Of a stretch of DNA of 50,029 nt, positions 16,640 to 25,014 are shown in pieces. How positions within the stretch are numbered: the first letter of the stretch is position 1; the number at the start of each line of letters is the position of its first letter. Below the pieces are notes generated by a model. The model did no database searches. It was not told the origin of the DNA and saw nothing but the letters and a program-made list of their open reading frames with translations. A program made the position numbers and the translations under genes. Origin of the DNA: Bacteroidota bacterium (GTDB taxonomy: Bacteria; Bacteroidota; Ignavibacteria; Kapaibacteriales; UBA961); NCBI GenBank assembly GCA_020852855.1, contig JADZAA010000104.1, forward strand, positions 1 to 50,029, in the 5' to 3' direction.

Positions 16640-17068
16640 TTAATGTTTGGCCAGCACCTTTACATCGCCGGTTACTTTCCCGACGCTGACGTATCCGATG
16701 GCACCGGGCGTAGAGGCAACTTTCTTAATCATCTCATCTTCTGTCGCAATAGTTGCCGGCGGATTTCCATTACCTGTAAGTTTTGCTTTCAGCCAAACTT
16801 TTTTGCAATCGGCAAACGATTTTCCGACAAAAGAGTAGAATTTCGATTTTGCGGCACCGTCTTCGCCCAGGTCGAAAAGAACAACGGTAGATCCGCCGAA
16901 TTGCTTCTGGTCAAGCATAACTATATTTGCCAACGTAGCGGCGTCAATAGAACCGGCTGCAACAGATTTATTGGCAATAACCGCCATAGTTTGCCCCGAA
17001 AGACGCGGTGTTACGAACGCAAGTGCAACAAATATTGCCGCAACTAAGGATATCTTTAAATACTTCAT
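16640..17068 (-). CDS. PstS-like short periplasmic binding-domain protein
   Basis: 142 aa with a signal peptide (MKYLKISLVAAIFVALAF..., cleavage near SGQ, residue 26). The mature ~115 residues resemble one lobe of the phosphate-binding PBP-like domain (VIANKSVAA, LANIVMLDQKQFGG, and the C-terminal VASTPGAIGYVSVG typical of PstS). It is far shorter than a full PstS (~270 aa) and has no ABC-transporter partner nearby. It is third in the chemoreceptor/porin/PstS-like set, 27 nt after the porin-like gene. A ligand-sensing role for the chemoreceptor is plausible but inferred. Confidence 0.75.
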   Translation of the reverse strand: MKYLKISLVAAIFVALAFVTPRLSGQTMAVIANKSVAAGSIDAATLANIVMLDQKQFGGSTVVLFDLGEDGAAKSKFYSFVGKSFADCKKVWLKAKLTGNGNPPATIATEDEMIKKVASTPGAIGYVSVGKVTGDVKVLAKH

Positions 17069-17095
17069 AAGGTTTGCTCCTATTTCTGGAATATA

Positions 17096-18322
17096 TTAGA
17101 ATGCGACGCTGACTCCACCGTAAACGGAGAAGATACTAAGGTCGTAAATCGGTTTACCGTCTATTCCCATGGTCTTGAATGGTTCGGCATTGGGGAATTT
17201 CGCGCTTAATTGTGTACGATACAGTTGTAGTTTGAGAACAACGTTATCATTGGCGCGGTATCCGAAGCCGCCGGAAATTCCGACAAGATTCTCTTTAAGA
17301 ACAGAACTGAAATTGTCCTTAAACGAATTGAATACTCCGTATACATAGAGTTGGTCGTTGATGTCGTATTGCAGCGAGGCAAAATAGAATAATTTATTCA
17401 TATCGCCTCCGAGCATTTGATTTGCTTTAATAACGGCCAACTGTGCATCTGTAAGAGTATAATTAACCATAATAAGTTCTGCGTTAAGCGTAAGGCCGCC
17501 GGTTGAATAGGATAAATCTGCACCGACACGCATACGAGGAATATCCCCGTTACCTACGCCTGGGCTGTTAAGCGTAGTGTCTGCGCGATGATTATCCGAA
17601 TCCATAGTTAAAGAAGCACCCAATTTCAAACCGCCGGAGCGAACACCCACGCGCGCACCGATAGTTTTAAGGGATACCAGGCTGGTTCCGGTAGCGTCCG
17701 GTCTGAATTCCATTGGCTTTTTATCCGAAACAATATAGGAATCTTCGGCTTCGCCCACATATACGGCATAGTCAATTTTGGAGTCGCCAGCCGGAAAGAA
17801 TCCATACGCTTGGACAAGTCCGCGTGAAGGCAAATAGTCTTCGGGAGGGAGCAAGCCGCTCAACGAAGTTTCATATACAAACGGCCTTATGATATACGGC
17901 AATAGCGGCATACGGTTGTATATTTCATATAAATTGTTGAATTGCGGCAGAAATAATCCCGCCTTGATGTTGAAAGAGTTTGAACCTTCATATTTTACGA
18001 AAGCTTCTTGCAAATTCAAACTTCCCCAGCCGCGGTCGCTCGAATACGAATTAACGAACTCAAGATTGACAAATGCGCCGAAATTATTGCCAAGATCTTT
18101 CGAGGCAAATATATTCGCTTGTTGCAACGAGAACACGCTATTATCAATGTTCATCTCCTGCGTTACCGCTCCGGGCATGGGCAGGGTTTGCTTCTGCGTT
18201 CTAAACGAATGCGTAGCGAAGCTTTGGAAAAATCCAAAAACTTCGATGTCACTTTGAGCAAATGATGGAACGGCGCATAATATTGCCATAACGGCTACGC
18301 CAAGAAAACGTAAAGACTTCAT
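17096..18322 (-). CDS. porin-like outer-membrane barrel
   Basis: 408 aa. Signal peptide MKSLRFLGVAVMAILCAVPSFA, then an N-terminal strand (IEVFGFFQSF) and regular amphipathic strands to a terminal phenylalanine (VYGGVSVAF), the usual barrel-assembly signal. Segments such as FGAFVNLEFVNSY, LQEAFVKYEG and FNIKAGLFLPQFN resemble general or phosphate-type porins. A tight ribosome site (GGAGGTAAAGT) precedes the ATG. It lies between the chemoreceptor and the PstS-like protein. Confidence 0.8.
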   Translation of the reverse strand: MKSLRFLGVAVMAILCAVPSFAQSDIEVFGFFQSFATHSFRTQKQTLPMPGAVTQEMNIDNSVFSLQQANIFASKDLGNNFGAFVNLEFVNSYSSDRGWGSLNLQEAFVKYEGSNSFNIKAGLFLPQFNNLYEIYNRMPLLPYIIRPFVYETSLSGLLPPEDYLPSRGLVQAYGFFPAGDSKIDYAVYVGEAEDSYIVSDKKPMEFRPDATGTSLVSLKTIGARVGVRSGGLKLGASLTMDSDNHRADTTLNSPGVGNGDIPRMRVGADLSYSTGGLTLNAELIMVNYTLTDAQLAVIKANQMLGGDMNKLFYFASLQYDINDQLYVYGVFNSFKDNFSSVLKENLVGISGGFGYRANDNVVLKLQLYRTQLSAKFPNAEPFKTMGIDGKPIYDLSIFSVYGGVSVAF

Positions 18323-18339
18323 ACTTTACCTCCACAAAA

Positions 18340-18369
18340 TAAAAAAATGCTGCGGAACGAACACCGCAG
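18340..18369 (-). terminator. intercistronic terminator-like hairpin
   Basis: On the minus strand, CTGCGG-tgttcgtt-CCGCAG is followed by CATTTTTTT. It sits 19 nt after the chemoreceptor stop and 18 nt before the porin-like start. This position would reduce rather than block read-through, or it may stabilise the downstream mRNA. Confidence 0.5.
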
Positions 18370-18388
18370 AGTATCTTTTGTTTAACAG

Positions 18389-20086
18389 CTATCGCCCTCG
18401 TAGTTGATGCTGCGTTGTTTGAGCGGAATACCCCCCGCTCGATACAGTAAAATTACCGATAATAGTTTGCAGATCTGACGTAAGTTTGTTCAAATCTTCG
18501 ATAGTGCGGGCGATTTCTCCTATGCTGCCCGACATTTCGATAGACGCAGACGACAATCCCTCGATATTGATAGCAATTTCTTGGCTGGTACATGCCTGCG
18601 TTTCCGAAGCCTGCGAAACCGTCAGAATAGTTGCCGTAACGCTATTGGTGCGTTCGCTTACTACTTGCAACGTTTCGCTTGTGCCGGACGACTCGCTTTG
18701 TATTTGGCGTATTTTATTTTGGATTTCCTTTGTGGCTTCGTGAGTGCGCTCGGAAAGTTTACGCACTTCATCGGCAACTACCGAGAAGCCCCGCCCTGCT
18801 TCACCCGCTCGTGCCGCTTCAATAGCGGCATTTAAAGCAAGCAGATTAGTTTGGTCGGTTATATCGCGAATAAGTGAGATAATTTCACCGATTTCTTCGC
18901 TGCTTTGCGCCAATGAAGCAACCCGTTCTCCTGATGCTTTCACCGCATTGAGTGCTTCATTAGCTTGGTCGCGCGCCTTTATTGACTGCTTGGTATTTTC
19001 AGTAATCGTATGCGACATTTCTACTACAGAATTGGCTATCGAACGCGATTGGCGGGATTGGTCATCGGCTGTGGCGGCCATTTCCGTACTTGCCGCACTA
19101 AGTTGAGTAGCTACGCTTGCAGCAGATTCAATGGCACTATTGACCTGCAACACTAAATTGCGAATATTGCTTACAGCCCGATTAAAACCATCGAAAAGTC
19201 GCCCGATTTCATCGTCGCTATTAACCGGAACGGCAACACCTAAATCGCCAAGCGCGAATTTCTCCATAGCCGCCAAGATTTCATTGATGCTGTCCGAAAG
19301 GTATTCTTGCTGATGCACCGAAACTTCGCGCGCTTTCTCCACTTGGTCAAGCAATGAATGTACGCGGTCGACCAACACATTATACGCACCGTATAATTTG
19401 GCTATAGTGTCGTCGCGCTCGGCTACGAGCTCCCGTGTAGTTTCGCCACGGCCGAATGCTTCCATTTCTTCCAGCATACGGCTAACCGATATATCAAGAT
19501 ATTTTCCTTCTGCGGCAGCCTCGCTATGTATACGTGCCGCTATTCTACGCATAATAAGAAGAATAATACCTACGCCTGCAACAAGTATTATTATATTCAT
19601 CAATGCGCCGTCGCGCACATCCAATGCCAACGTGTTGTTCGTCCCTTCCAACGAATAAACAACCGCTACACGACCGTATTTGGTACCGTCGGCTTTCGCA
19701 TCGACTGCAACGGTCAGAGTCCGTCCGTCCGAACTCGCCCCAAGCGATTTACCGACAGATTTCTTATCAATGGAGTATTTGACAGCCGAGTCTACAATGA
19801 TAGTATTTGTTTCGTCCAATACTGCTACATATACTACCGAAGTATCTTTCAAAGCATCGCGGAAAGCGTAATTAACCAAATCGAAATTGGAGTTTTTAAG
19901 AGCAAAAGCAGTAGAGGTGGCCAGGGCATTGCACTTGCTCTCAACGTATTTTTCAATGCCCGCCATTACAGACTTTTTCTGTTGTGACGGAAAATACGTC
20001 AATCCGAAAACTATGGGGATACAAAGAACAAGAGTGCTGACTGTTACTAACTGTACTGTTAGCGACGAACGGAACCAACGAAACAT
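18389..20086 (-). CDS. methyl-accepting chemotaxis protein
   Basis: 565 aa. TM1 is near residues 12-30. A periplasmic sensor of about 145 residues of the single-Cache kind follows ([20 protein letters not shown] ... [14 protein letters not shown]), then TM2 near 180-200 ([17 protein letters not shown]). A HAMP-like region and a second HAMP-like helix pair ([24 protein letters not shown]) follow. The cytoplasmic signalling tip has the invariant [19 protein letters not shown]. No CheB/CheR pentapeptide is seen at the C-terminus. It is first in the set with the porin-like and PstS-like genes. Confidence 0.93.
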
Positions 20087-20210: not shown

Positions 20211-20334
20211 CGGCAAGTTGGAAGATATTGTACATTTTTTTTATCAAGCAGATTAGATTATGGCTTACAGTCATATTTCATCATATCATCTCTAAAAAAA
20301 GGTATTCAATTACTTTTATTGTTAAAATTATGCT

Positions 20335-20684: not shown

Positions 20685-21638
20685 ATGGAAACAGCCACAG
20701 AGAACATCTTGAATGTAACCTTGATTGAACCAAGGTTCAAGCATCCCACAATTTTCTCCCGTTTTGACGAATTGAACGAAGGCGAAAGTTTGACCATTCA
20801 TAACGACCACGACCCTAAGCCGCTATATTATCAATTATTAGGCGAGCGCGGCGATATTTTCACTTGGGAATATCTTGAGCAAGGCCCCGAATGGTGGAAA
20901 GTAAAAATCAGCAAGCGCGTAATGGGCGCAGGCGGAGAAACTCTCGGAGAAATTGCCGCCAAAGATGTGCGCAAAGCACAAATCTTCAAAAAATACGGAA
21001 TAGACTTTTGTTGCGGCGGCAAAAAAACGGTAAAAGAAGCGTGTGCCGAAAAAGGTTTGGACGTAAAAACAGTAGAAGAAGAATTGCAAAAAGCCGATAA
21101 AGTCGAAAATGCACGTCCCTTGCCTTATAATGAATGGGAACTCGATTTTCTTGCCGACTATATCGTTAATATGCACCATGCATATCTCAAGAAAAATCTT
21201 CCCGATATTAAAGCGTATGCCTACAAGGTGATGCGAGTACATGGAGCGAATCATCCGGAATTGCTGAAAGTATATCAATTAACGGAAGATATAAGCTCCG
21301 AATTGACTGCACACATGCAAAAAGAGGAACATATTCTGTTTCCGTTTATCAAGCATTTGACATCTGTAAAAAACGGTACGCAAAAGCTTGAGCGAGGTGC
21401 GTTCGGAAGTGTGCAAAACCCGGTTTCCATGATGGAACATGAGCATAAAATGGTGGGCGATTATTTAGATGAGTTGCGCCAATGCACCAACGAATATACG
21501 TTGCCTCCCGATGCTTGCGCCAGCTACAGCCTGCTTTATAGAATGCTCGACGAAATGGAGGACGACGTGCATTTGCATATTCATTTAGAAAACAACATAC
21601 TTTTTCCCAAAGCCGTTAAATTGGAAAAAGAGTTGTAG
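20685..21638 (+). CDS. DUF2249-RIC fusion: di-iron iron-sulfur cluster repair protein
   Basis: 317 aa in three parts. Residues 1-78 are a DUF2249 domain nearly identical to the preceding gene. Residues ~84-135 are the ScdA N-terminal (DUF542) domain with the CCGG motif at 109-112. Residues ~160-315 are a hemerythrin-like four-helix bundle with iron ligands in NMHHAYL, HMQKEEHILFPF, MEHEHKMVG and HLHIHLENNILFP. YtfE/ScdA/RIC proteins restore Fe-S clusters damaged by NO or peroxide. The M at residue 80 marks where a stand-alone RIC would begin. No ribosome site is obvious. It is probably co-transcribed with the upstream gene and closed by the hairpin at 21701. Confidence 0.93.
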   Translation: METATENILNVTLIEPRFKHPTIFSRFDELNEGESLTIHNDHDPKPLYYQLLGERGDIFTWEYLEQGPEWWKVKISKRVMGAGGETLGEIAAKDVRKAQIFKKYGIDFCCGGKKTVKEACAEKGLDVKTVEEELQKADKVENARPLPYNEWELDFLADYIVNMHHAYLKKNLPDIKAYAYKVMRVHGANHPELLKVYQLTEDISSELTAHMQKEEHILFPFIKHLTSVKNGTQKLERGAFGSVQNPVSMMEHEHKMVGDYLDELRQCTNEYTLPPDACASYSLLYRMLDEMEDDVHLHIHLENNILFPKAVKLEKEL

Positions 21639-21823: not shown

Positions 21824-22156
21824 ATGGAAGGTTATATTGGCAGAACCGAATGGAAAGAAGGAAGAGTAAAAAACTTTTTCGGTAAGGATTTGCTGTCTTT
21901 GGATAATGGATCGGTGAAATTAGTAAGGGTTGTTTCGCAGGCCATATATCCCGAACACATTCACCCCGACAGAACAGAATATGTTTATGTACTTAAAGGC
22001 TTCCCGAATTTTCAGATAGACCAAGAGGAGTTTTCGGCAAAGCCCGATGAATTCTACGTCTTTCCGTCAAAGGTGAAGCACGCAATTCGCAATTATTGCG
22101 ACAGCGAATGTCTGTTATTGGTTGGAAATATCAAAGATATTGACACCGGCTTATGA
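21824..22156 (+). CDS. small cupin-domain protein
   Basis: 110 aa, single cupin_2 barrel. Cupin motif 1 is seen as YPEHIHPDRTEYVYVLKG (metal-type His, His, Glu) and motif 2 as DEFYVFPSKVKHAIRN with the last His. Such proteins bind a metal or a small ligand; the function here is unknown. It is the first gene of a tightly packed five-gene operon and its last codon overlaps the next start (ATGA). Confidence 0.82.
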   Translation: MEGYIGRTEWKEGRVKNFFGKDLLSLDNGSVKLVRVVSQAIYPEHIHPDRTEYVYVLKGFPNFQIDQEEFSAKPDEFYVFPSKVKHAIRNYCDSECLLLVGNIKDIDTGL

Positions 22157-22965
22157 ATACTACCATTAACTCCGACACAAAAATTGCAGATATTCTTAGG
22201 TCGCATCCCGATGCATTGGAAGCAATAATAAGTATTTCGCCTAAATTTAATAAGCTTCGCAATCCATTATTAAGACGACTTATGGCTTCCCGAACGTCAA
22301 TAAGCATGGCAAGCAAAATCGGCGGATGTTCGGCAAATGATTTTTTCGACAAATTACAGCCGCTTGGATTTATTATTGACAGAACTATTGCGGCTGACGA
22401 CATGTCCGCACCGAGTACGGTGCCCGAGTTTCTAATTAATATTTCGGCCGATGACATTGTAGAATTAGACGTTCGCGAAATATTGGAATCCGGCAAGGAT
22501 CCGTTTAACTTAATACTTGAACACATCAAGCGTCTGAAAGCAAAACAAGTTCTAAAACTTATAAATAGCTTCGAGCCTATTCCGCTTATTCAATTATTGG
22601 AAAAAAAAGGATATAAAACATATTCGGAAGTCGTTAATGCAGATTTGGTTTTTACATATTTCTTTAACAGCGAACAAATTCCGGCTTATGAACAAGAACG
22701 GCTCGGCTCCGACGAGGATTGGGACGGCATTTCAGATAGGTTCAAGGACAAAATTGTAACAATTGATGTTCGGGCTTTGGAGATGCCGCTTCCGATGCTT
22801 ACGATTCTCGATTCATTAGAAAATCTGCCCGACGGGAAGGCACTTTACGTATATCACAAGCGCATACCTGTTTTTCTTTTGCCGGAATTGCAAGAGCGCA
22901 AATTTGAATACAGGATTAAAGAAATCAGCGACAGCGAAGTTCACCTTTTAATTTTCAAGCCTTAA
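22153..22965 (+). CDS. DUF1858 plus tandem DUF2249 domain protein
   Basis: 270 aa, cytosolic. Residues ~8-60 are a DUF1858 domain (TKIADILRSHPDALEAI), a helical module related to the ScdA N-terminal domain. Two TusA-like DUF2249 segments follow at ~105-175 (VELDVREILESGKDPFNLI) and ~200-270 (VTIDVRALEMPLPMLTILDSL). The catalytic cysteine of TusA is absent from both; Lys or Glu and Met stand in its place, so direct sulfur relay is unlikely. The start overlaps the cupin stop by four bases, and the stop directly abuts the next ATG, indicating translational coupling. Confidence 0.8.
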   Translation: MNTTINSDTKIADILRSHPDALEAIISISPKFNKLRNPLLRRLMASRTSISMASKIGGCSANDFFDKLQPLGFIIDRTIAADDMSAPSTVPEFLINISADDIVELDVREILESGKDPFNLILEHIKRLKAKQVLKLINSFEPIPLIQLLEKKGYKTYSEVVNADLVFTYFFNSEQIPAYEQERLGSDEDWDGISDRFKDKIVTIDVRALEMPLPMLTILDSLENLPDGKALYVYHKRIPVFLLPELQERKFEYRIKEISDSEVHLLIFKP

Positions 22966-24261
22966 ATGTTTGCGCCCTCTCTAAATTCAGATGCTGTAAA
23001 AACAACTTCTTACAAGGTTGTTTTGCCGTTTTATTTATATGCCTCTTTCTCGTTCCTAATCGCAACTATTTTCTTATTTGCTTCGAGCGAGGCTTTTCTG
23101 AATCATTACTTCCATCCACAAATTTTAGCCATCACGCATATAATGGCTTTGGGATGGGCTACAATGATTATTATCGGTGCCGGACATCAGCTTGTTCCGG
23201 TGCTTATCGAGGGAAAACTTTACAGCAATAAACTCGCTTACGCTTCTTTTGCACTTGCCGCCGTTGGAATACCCCTGCTTGTTCACGGATTTTATTTTTT
23301 CGATATGAACATGCCCGCAAAATGGGGCGGGCGATTTGTCGTATTTGCAATAATCGCTTATTTCATAAATGTTGTTGCAAGCGCGGCGGAAAGCAAAAGG
23401 AAAAATGTTCATTCGGTGTTTGTAATTACCGCGACGGCTTGGCTTCTCATTACTGCATTATTAGGCTTAGCATTAGTTTATAACTTTACTTACGATTTAT
23501 TGCCGCAAAATTCTTTTCATTATTTTTCAGTTCATGCACATATAGGAATAATCGGCTGGTTTCTCCTGCTGGTTATAGGAGTTGCTTCGCGTTTAATACC
23601 TATGTTTTTAATCTCAAAATATACAAATGTGCGATTGCTTTGGTTAATATTCGCATTAATTAACGGCGCATTATTATCTTATATTGTCATATTTTTTATT
23701 TTCCCAAATACAATATCGGCTTTTGTTTCCGTCGGTATGGTATTGGCCGCAGCCGTTTTATTTATTTTTTATTGTCACCAAGCCTATAAGCAACGATTGC
23801 GCCGGCAAGTAGATGAGCAAGTACGAATATCGTTGCTGTCGGCTTTTATGCTCCTGCTCCCGATTATTTTATTATTCGTAATTATTGCTTTGTCGTTTGC
23901 CGCATCAGGAGTGAAAAGCAATCTTATACTCGGCTACGGTTTTGTCGTTTTCTTTGGCTGGCTAACCGCTGTTATTCTCGGAATGACATTTAAAACTATG
24001 CCCTTTATCGTATGGAATAAAGTATACCGCCAACGCTCGGCCGCCGGCAAAACTCCGAACCCGAAGGATTTATTCGATAATTTAATTTTTAAGATAATGG
24101 GGGTTTTATATCTTGTCGGATTTACTCTGTTTACTTTCGGTATAATGGATTCGCAAATAATTTTTCTGAAATCGGGATCTGTTTTTTTAATATCCACATC
24201 GGTTCTGTATAATTGGAATGTCCTGAAAGTGTTTAATCATAAAGCCGTAACAATGCCATGA
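22966..24261 (+). CDS. polytopic membrane protein, heme-copper oxidase subunit I-like / NnrS-like
   Basis: 431 aa, about 12 membrane helices. Helix 2 carries ITHIMALGW and GAGHQLVPV; a central helix carries VHAHIGIIGWF and SRLIPMF. These helix-embedded histidines followed by GW and a P-x-F/V turn resemble those that hold heme or copper in CcoN, NorB and NnrS, but the full heme-copper histidine set is not recognisable. The protein may bind heme or copper and act in NO response; this is inferred from motifs and neighbours. The start directly follows the previous stop, and the stop overlaps the next start (ATGA). Confidence 0.65.
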   Translation: MFAPSLNSDAVKTTSYKVVLPFYLYASFSFLIATIFLFASSEAFLNHYFHPQILAITHIMALGWATMIIIGAGHQLVPVLIEGKLYSNKLAYASFALAAVGIPLLVHGFYFFDMNMPAKWGGRFVVFAIIAYFINVVASAAESKRKNVHSVFVITATAWLLITALLGLALVYNFTYDLLPQNSFHYFSVHAHIGIIGWFLLLVIGVASRLIPMFLISKYTNVRLLWLIFALINGALLSYIVIFFIFPNTISAFVSVGMVLAAAVLFIFYCHQAYKQRLRRQVDEQVRISLLSAFMLLLPIILLFVIIALSFAASGVKSNLILGYGFVVFFGWLTAVILGMTFKTMPFIVWNKVYRQRSAAGKTPNPKDLFDNLIFKIMGVLYLVGFTLFTFGIMDSQIIFLKSGSVFLISTSVLYNWNVLKVFNHKAVTMP

Positions 24262-24584
24262 ACATAGTGTCTAATGACGATACTAAATGTACCGCAGCTA
24301 TCACAAGCCTGAAAGAGGTGATTGACCCTGAAATAGGCCTGAACATAGTTGATTTGGGCCTGATTTATGCGGTAAATTTTATGGAAGAGGAAAAGCGAAT
24401 TATTTGTGTTATGACTTTAACAACCGAATATTGTCCGATGGGCGAATCCATTGTAGATAATACTCGCCAGGCATTACAGTCGTCATTTTCGGATTTCGGC
24501 ACAATAGAAGTTAATTTAACCTTTGACCCACATTGGAGCTATTCAATGATTTCGGAAGAAGGCAGAAAATTTTTAGGAAGATGA
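24258..24584 (+). CDS. MIP18-family Fe-S assembly factor, second paralog
   Basis: 108 aa, one MIP18 (DUF59) domain: VIDPEIGLNIVDLGLIYAV, the conserved cysteine C59 in TTEYCPMG, and LTFDPHWSYSMISEEGRKFLG at the C-terminus. It lacks the acidic N-terminal extension of the sufT paralog at 13289. Close relatives include PaaD and SufT. Its place inside an RIC/Rrf2 cluster suggests a role in reloading Fe-S clusters after damage. It overlaps the preceding stop by four bases and is 4 nt from the regulator. Confidence 0.88.
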   Translation: MNIVSNDDTKCTAAITSLKEVIDPEIGLNIVDLGLIYAVNFMEEEKRIICVMTLTTEYCPMGESIVDNTRQALQSSFSDFGTIEVNLTFDPHWSYSMISEEGRKFLGR

Positions 24585-24588
24585 GAAT

Positions 24589-25014
24589 ATGCTTAGCTTA
24601 ACTTGCAAGGCCTCTATAAAAGCAATGATTTATCTTAGCTCAAAAACGGAGGCAGAAAAAAAACCAAGCGTCATTGAAATTGCAGAGTTCATTAATGAGA
24701 ATGAACATACAGTCGGCAAACTCTTGCAGAAATTAGTGAAAAAAAAGATTATCAACAGCTCAAAAGGACCAAACGGAGGCTTCTACATAACGGAAACACA
24801 AAAAAATCAGCAGCTTATAAATATTATTTATGCCATAGACGGCAATGATGTTTTTGAACAATGCGGCTTGGGGTTGCGTAAATGTAACGATACCAGACCA
24901 TGCCCTTTTCACAACGACTTTAAACCCGTGCGAGAATTATTCAGAAAAGTATGCATAGAAAAACATATCAGCGATTTATCCGAAAATATGGTATATTCAA
25001 CATTCAAGTGTTGA
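24589..25014 (+). CDS. Rrf2-family transcriptional regulator (NsrR/IscR-like)
   Basis: 141 aa. An N-terminal winged helix (residues 1-70; SVIEIAEFINENEHTVGKLLQKL, then SSKGPNGGF in the wing) and three cysteines C92, C99 and C105 in the loop that binds an Fe-S cluster in NsrR and IscR. Cluster loss on NO exposure would change DNA binding, which suits control of the surrounding repair genes. It is last in the operon, 4 nt after the MIP18 gene, with AGGA upstream. NsrR versus IscR-like identity cannot be fixed from sequence alone. Confidence 0.88.
   Translation: MLSLTCKASIKAMIYLSSKTEAEKKPSVIEIAEFINENEHTVGKLLQKLVKKKIINSSKGPNGGFYITETQKNQQLINIIYAIDGNDVFEQCGLGLRKCNDTRPCPFHNDFKPVRELFRKVCIEKHISDLSENMVYSTFKC

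Follow-up and report, generated by a model that had tools for sequence, protein, structure and literature searches.

The gene at positions 22966 to 24261 of the window (the whole stretch of 50,029 nucleotides of Bacteroidota DNA that was analyzed) encodes a membrane protein of 431 aa whose modeled fold is that of the heme-copper oxidase (HCO) superfamily: 12 transmembrane (TM) helices form three units of four helices each, in pseudo-threefold arrangement. In four or more bacterial phyla, the gene is co-inherited with genes of NO handling and denitrification, and the protein is predicted to hold one bis-His low-spin heme b between H58 (TM2, unit I) and H190 (TM6, unit II). With moderate confidence, we favor its reading as a membrane subunit with heme b that serves redox chemistry or sensing within a nitrogen-oxide cassette, with one heme site on an HCO fold. 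It is not an oxidase, NO reductase (NOR), or NnrS, and should not be filed as such. The features discussed here are collected in Table 1.

Table 1. Features of the operon and of the 12-TM gene, in positions of the window.
Feature	Position	Strand	Basis
Candidate operator AAGGTATTCAATTACTTT, degenerate copy of AATAAAAGTA-N6-TACTTTTATT	20299..20316	.	Position and homologous operons
Single DUF2249 protein, 79 aa	20384..20623	+	ORF and translation
RIC/ScdA/YtfE-type di-iron Fe-S repair protein with extra N-terminal DUF2249	20685..21638	+	Pfam, NCBIfam
Small cupin	21824..22156	+	Pfam Cupin_2 2.4e-12
DUF1858 + two DUF2249 domains, Thermus DrpB homologue	22153..22965	+	Pfam; 32% identity
12-TM heme-copper-oxidase-fold protein, predicted one-heme	22966..24261	+	Profile, AF2, Foldseek, conservation
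Invariant H58 codon (TM2), predicted heme b ligand	23137..23139	+	Alignments; aligns with second His of CcoN TM10 HxH
H74 codon (GHQL), not conserved	23185..23187	+	H/Y/F at column
Invariant H190 codon (TM6), predicted second heme b ligand	23533..23535	+	Alignments
H192 codon (TM6), conserved in Bacteroidota only	23539..23541	+	Alignments
DUF59/SufT-like Fe-S assembly protein	24258..24584	+	Pfam FeS_assembly_P 4.9e-10
Rrf2-family regulator, Cys92-Cys99-Cys105 + His108	24589..25014	+	Pfam Rrf2 1.6e-17

The open reading frame of the 12-TM protein is exactly as first described. Its start follows the stop codon of the DUF1858/DUF2249 gene without a gap, and its end overlaps the DUF59 gene by 4 bp; wherever records could be checked, its sole annotation is 'hypothetical protein'. 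The RIC gene product combines the Pfam domains DUF2249, ScdA_N, and Hemerythrin and scores 248.8 bits against the NCBIfam model FeS_repair_RIC, above the cut-off of 204.7. The DUF1858/DUF2249 protein aligns with Thermus DrpB over its full length (E 7e-42), and the DUF59 protein is 43% identical to its Thermus neighbor. The three cysteines and the histidine of the Rrf2-family regulator are kept in 74 of 74 homologues, a pattern which we take to resemble the Fe-S ligands of NsrR and IscR. Uniting a RIC gene with an Fe-S-type Rrf2 regulator, the operon is of the RIC/NsrR-type connected with NO stress, and the repair context which the original prediction had assumed for the gene holds true, since genes for Fe-S repair and NO are found in the operon. 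Elsewhere, the same genome encodes qNor, NosZ, and a true NnrS; no NirK was found in it.

The 79-aa DUF2249 open reading frame is nearly identical to the N-terminal DUF2249 domain of the RIC protein (20685-20920). Apparently, it represents a recent tandem duplication that now parts the operator-like site from the RIC gene. Upstream of the operon, on the minus strand (16640-20086), a small periplasmic-binding-like protein, a porin-like protein, and a methyl-accepting chemotaxis protein are encoded.

The operator-like site is best seen in the homologous operons. In 43 of 67, the palindrome AAGTA-N6-TACTT, commonly in the form AATAAAAGTA-N6-TACTTTTATT, occurs at a distance of up to 250 bp ahead of the RIC gene; 45 copies fall within these upstream regions (16.75 kb), compared with 55 in all 1.22 Mb of the loci. 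The copy in the window has two mismatches and is not significant alone, and it is listed as a candidate operator because of its position 68 bp ahead of the first gene. In a regulon search, degenerate matches showed no excess over the control. The exact palindrome was found once among the matches listed for genome G338, ahead of this operon, and thus looks operon-specific. The simplest reading is that the palindrome is a candidate operator of a self-regulating Rrf2 protein.

Three histidine motifs can be read in the 12-TM protein, THIMALGW (H58), GHQLVP (H74), and HAHIGIIGW (H190, H192), and they had been placed within membrane helices, twelve in number, from the letters of the sequence. Structure prediction and comparison, proposed as a check, confirmed this picture. 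Given 79 sequences, AlphaFold2 returned a confident model (pLDDT 92.4, pTM 0.92) of 12 long helices, TM1 to TM6 at residues 16-39, 51-81, 88-110, 116-142, 148-173, and 183-214, and TM7 to TM12 at 222-245, 249-275, 284-312, 318-354, 372-395, and 398-423. H58 and H74 are located in TM2, H190 and H192 in TM6. The 50 matches listed by a Foldseek search of this model against the PDB are all HCOs or NORs, with TM-scores by query length of 0.58-0.72, the highest with CcoN, and E-values of 3e-6 to 3e-4. A profile of the family, compared with the PDB, retrieves CcoN chains at E 3.9e-7 to about 1e-6 and places residues 37-119 on CcoN TM10-12. Since the profile matches CcoN and all Foldseek matches listed are HCOs or NORs, the suggested likeness to CcoN and NorB reflects true homology at the levels of fold and profile, and lies beyond chance. 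The idea of a branch of the oxidase superfamily was thus right at fold level.

The units comprise residues 14-145, 146-282, and 283-431, which can be aligned with each other (I-II 1.8e-9, I-III 5.9e-11, II-III 6.5e-5). For units I and II, the best region of CcoN is TM10, with E 3.7e-9 for unit I (TM10-12) and 9.1e-6 for unit II; unit I also matches a NorB profile (E 1.3e-7). A control profile of the MFS gave no alignment to the family at all.

This kinship emerges from the family rather than from the single sequence, for which Pfam, NCBIfam, and phmmer against the PDB yielded nothing decisive, such that the family profile was needed. The Pfam model COX1 (PF00115) matches 19 of 24 family members at E ≤ 1 (best 2.1e-17); the window protein has no match to it and stays below the Pfam gathering score. 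Similarly, the ccoN model matches six of the 24 members (best 1.2e-11), and the window protein has no match to CcoN TIGR00780 (NCBIfam) and so does not reach its cut-off; its score against PRK14485 is only 20.2 of 1080 bits. A single qNor sequence compared with a 15-row family profile gave a marginal match at HAH only (E 0.049, 1% probability).

In known HCOs, the low-spin heme b is held by the histidine at -20 of one unit and that at -22/-21 of the next, in the oxidases by TM10 and TM2. In each unit of the 12-TM protein, the register is set by a proline that closes the key helix and follows the GW motif at about 14 residues. H58 lies 20 residues ahead of its proline and aligns with the second histidine of the CcoN HxH motif, the residue that ligates heme b from TM10. 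H190 lies 22 residues ahead of its proline; the TM2 heme ligand, counted by hand, is at 22 in CcoN and 21 in NorB sequences. H58 of unit I and H190 of unit II are therefore in the same register relation as the HCO ligand pair, and on this ground one bis-His heme b is predicted between units I and II.

Conservation singles out the same two residues. In an alignment of 15 representatives from Bacteroidota, Thermus, rhizobia, and Aliarcobacter, invariance among the histidines is limited to H58 and H190. The other invariant residues are L54, G63, G71, A72, Q75, G101, F109, and G167 in the first part and G197, G205, M213, F214, R277, G331, K343, F347, W350, and P364 in the second. Of the histidines whose conservation had been put up for checking, H74 is replaced by F or Y in most homologues and H192 is lost outside Bacteroidota, so only one residue of each helix stood. 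TM7 (222-245) contains no histidine, and no further histidine is invariant. Hence, neither CuB or FeB nor a high-spin heme site is to be expected, in line with the original prediction, which had found the whole catalytic ligand set not recognizable. For the same reason, the protein would not reduce O2 or NO on its own, unlike the oxidases and NORs.

These residues also bear on the suggestion of an NO-binding heme protein. An NO-binding or NO-converting enzyme with a five-coordinate heme and no second metal would suit the consistent NO and denitrification context, and in Bacteroidota a second site, faced by H192 together with Y324, is conceivable. However, neither H192 nor Y324 is conserved outside Bacteroidota, CuB/FeB ligands are missing, and two invariant histidines suggest a six-coordinate heme; NO binding as such is possible, but the pair fits a bis-His low-spin heme better than a five-coordinate one. 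We regard such an enzyme as rather improbable. A catalytic H192/Y324 site as a feature of the family was rejected on the 15-representative alignment, in which the Y324 column was inspected by hand.

Topology is indicated by the loops, which carry 14 K/R on the N-terminal side vs. one on the opposite side. Due to this bias and the positive-inside rule, the N-terminus probably resides in the cytoplasm and the predicted heme in the periplasmic half of the membrane. In the mechanism that we propose for a redox or sensing subunit, the single heme b between TM2 and TM6 would pass electrons to or from quinol or a cytochrome, or respond to NO or the redox state. The conserved cytoplasmic face (K343, W350, R277, P364) would dock the DrpB-like DUF1858/DUF2249 protein and the DUF59 protein, and together with these partners the 12-TM protein would support NO detoxification and Fe-S protection by RIC. 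The contact with the DUF2249 and DUF59 proteins is deduced from gene order. A counterpoint to a redox subunit is that a lone bis-His heme close to the periplasm is ill suited to conduct electrons across the membrane to partners in the cytosol.

Instead, the HCO-fold pores might let a nitrogen oxide, heme, or iron pass, making the protein a transporter or channel, with the heme or the histidine pair being structural. Pore III/I is free of histidines, the units keep the polar residues Q75, R/K209, and K343 near their cytoplasmic ends, and export of nitrogen compounds and iron homeostasis are mentioned for HCO homologues in a study citing Pei et al. 2014 (PMC11218638). On the other hand, no known transporter family was matched, and two invariant histidines in heme-ligand registers would be left unexplained. 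Altogether, we consider transport unlikely.

NnrS, a further suggestion of the original prediction, has been associated with heme and copper in published work. That the 12-TM protein is a diverged NnrS would agree with its many helices and its similar context. Nevertheless, the Pfam model of NnrS (PF05940) has no match in any member of the family, while a true NnrS, used as control, is found at 3e-29. The profile comparison is weak when the A3 alignment is used (E 4.6e-4 at 33% probability), a profile of 108 sequences gave nothing, and comparisons with the single sequence and a 5-row profile were weak or null. A diverged NnrS, with no convincing profile match and a true NnrS encoded separately, is highly improbable; separate true NnrS genes exist in the same genome and beside the 12-TM gene in rhizobial islands. 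The true NnrS of the same organism lies on another contig (C75; L116:258-1445). Copper handling, also brought up at first, has no support from the family, in which no Cu ligands are conserved.

Scanning 396 genomes of the phylum revealed full-length homologues in 25, the window's own genome included, with 28-66% identity in the other genomes; many further weak matches pair the N-terminal third with CcoN-type proteins. At least 516 relatives were confirmed in a scan of the genome collection, of which 80 were kept, nearly all from Bacteroidota. Searching plasmids by tblastn extended the family to Thermus, Sinorhizobium, Ensifer, Mesorhizobium, Shinella, and Aliarcobacter, and no homologue was found in the viral contigs searched. 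The following counts refer to 80 homologous loci, the window among them. A DUF1858/DUF2249 gene lies immediately upstream in 76 and a DUF59 gene immediately downstream in 71 loci, and both flank the 12-TM gene directly in 70. Gene junctions within the cassette are mostly 4-bp overlaps or near-zero gaps. The entire order from RIC over DUF1858/DUF2249, 12-TM, and DUF59 to Rrf2 is preserved in 60 of the 80.

Beyond this core, the surroundings vary by lineage. In Thermus, a block of drpA, drpB, a 144-aa single-unit HCO-like protein, protoglobin, 12-TM, and DUF59 follows directly behind the nar operon. The rhizobia show the order DUF2249, 12-TM, DUF2249, and usually DUF59, located between hemN/nor and nirK or near nosRZ; a separate NnrS gene is found near the block situated between hemN/nor and nirK. 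Aliarcobacter has kept only the pair of 12-TM and DUF59, and divergent members from Bacteroidota adjoin qNor, nirK, or nosZ. Co-occurrence with qNor among the 396 genomes is modest (six of 25 genomes with the 12-TM gene vs. 33 of 371 without, p 0.027), thus the role of the protein is not confined to genomes bearing qNor. In some Bacteroidota (L036-L115), a small hemerythrin-like protein (about 165 aa, 17 loci) or a small putative lipoprotein (about 151 aa, 13 loci) separates RIC from the DUF1858/DUF2249 gene as an insertion. The 144-aa four-helix unit of Thermus (L121:13677-14111) is matched by profile at 1.7e-7 and occurs also beside DUF59 in L128, L129, L131, and L138-L140; in the window's genome no such single-unit protein was detected. 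A pairing of this unit with the 12-TM protein is conceivable.

In the strongest rival of the redox or sensing subunit, the 12-TM heme protein would act as a sensor or anchor that reports NO, O2, or the quinone redox state to the DrpB-like protein and in this way tunes nitrogen-oxide genes. In Thermus, drpA and drpB mutants misregulate nitrate respiration and nitrate-reductase expression, and DrpB is a membrane-associated protein (PMC6282519). The genes of the 4-TM HCO-like protein and protoglobin occupy the 1.3 kb that separate drpB from the Thermus 12-TM gene downstream of it, and K343, W350, and R277 are invariant on the cytoplasmic side. Yet the operons already contain dedicated regulators (Rrf2, Fnr-type), and the presence of DUF59 and RIC points to repair rather than signaling. 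We consider a sensor of this kind possible but doubtful, and retain the heme b redox or sensing subunit as the preferred reading. More tentatively, a widespread HCO-fold class with a single bis-His heme, combined with DUF2249/DUF1858 and DUF59 proteins, may constitute an undescribed redox system which, in denitrifiers of several phyla, connects the respiratory membrane with NO detoxification and Fe-S protection, or with the sensing of nitrogen oxides.

DUF2249 presumably corresponds to COG4309. Genes of COG4309 were described as probably co-transcribed with NnrR-regulated nor genes and were predicted in NsrR regulons (PMC1274295). In Bradyrhizobium, a DUF1858 gene adjoining nnrR is strongly NnrR-dependent (PMC6710368).

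With the results presented here, a 'hypothetical protein' of Thermus, Sinorhizobium, Ensifer, Mesorhizobium, Shinella, and Aliarcobacter becomes a testable candidate for a heme protein, embedded in a fixed cassette of DUF1858/DUF2249, 12-TM, and DUF59. This bears on the role of DUF2249 proteins in denitrification as well as on uses of the three-unit oxidase fold besides O2 and NO reduction. Sinorhizobium meliloti, Thermus thermophilus, and Chitinophaga are carriers that are tractable in the laboratory. Novel homologous families of the HCO superfamily are reportedly, by its title, the subject of Pei et al. 2014 (Protein Sci 23:1220). Such families are linked to DUF2249 in a paper citing that work (PMC11218638), and the 12-TM family may already be among them.

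Compared with known systems, the 12-TM protein shares with CcoN and other HCO catalytic subunits the three-unit fold of 12 helices, the TM10 motif H-x4-GW...P, and the register of the low-spin heme b ligands. In contrast to CcoN, it has neither the CuB ligands (TM6 His, TM7 His-His) nor the high-spin heme site nor CcoO/CcoP partners, and the predicted heme pair belongs to units I and II instead of TM10 and TM2. NorB and qNor resemble it in fold, in the profile match of unit I to the TM2 region of NorB, and in having NO genes as neighbors; they differ by their FeB ligands, and the 12-TM protein has its own gene, separate from that of qNor or NorB in the same genome or island. NnrS, likewise a many-helix membrane protein of NO and denitrification regulons, coexists with it as a separate gene, and the NnrS model does not recognize the 12-TM protein. 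The Thermus 4-TM protein is part of the same cassette and carries the motif SHVHAGLVG...P, but comprises one HCO unit instead of three. Finally, the passages seen of the DrpA/DrpB study on Thermus thermophilus do not treat the downstream 12-TM gene (PMC6282519); the immediate upstream neighbor of the 12-TM gene in the window encodes a full-length homologue of DrpB.
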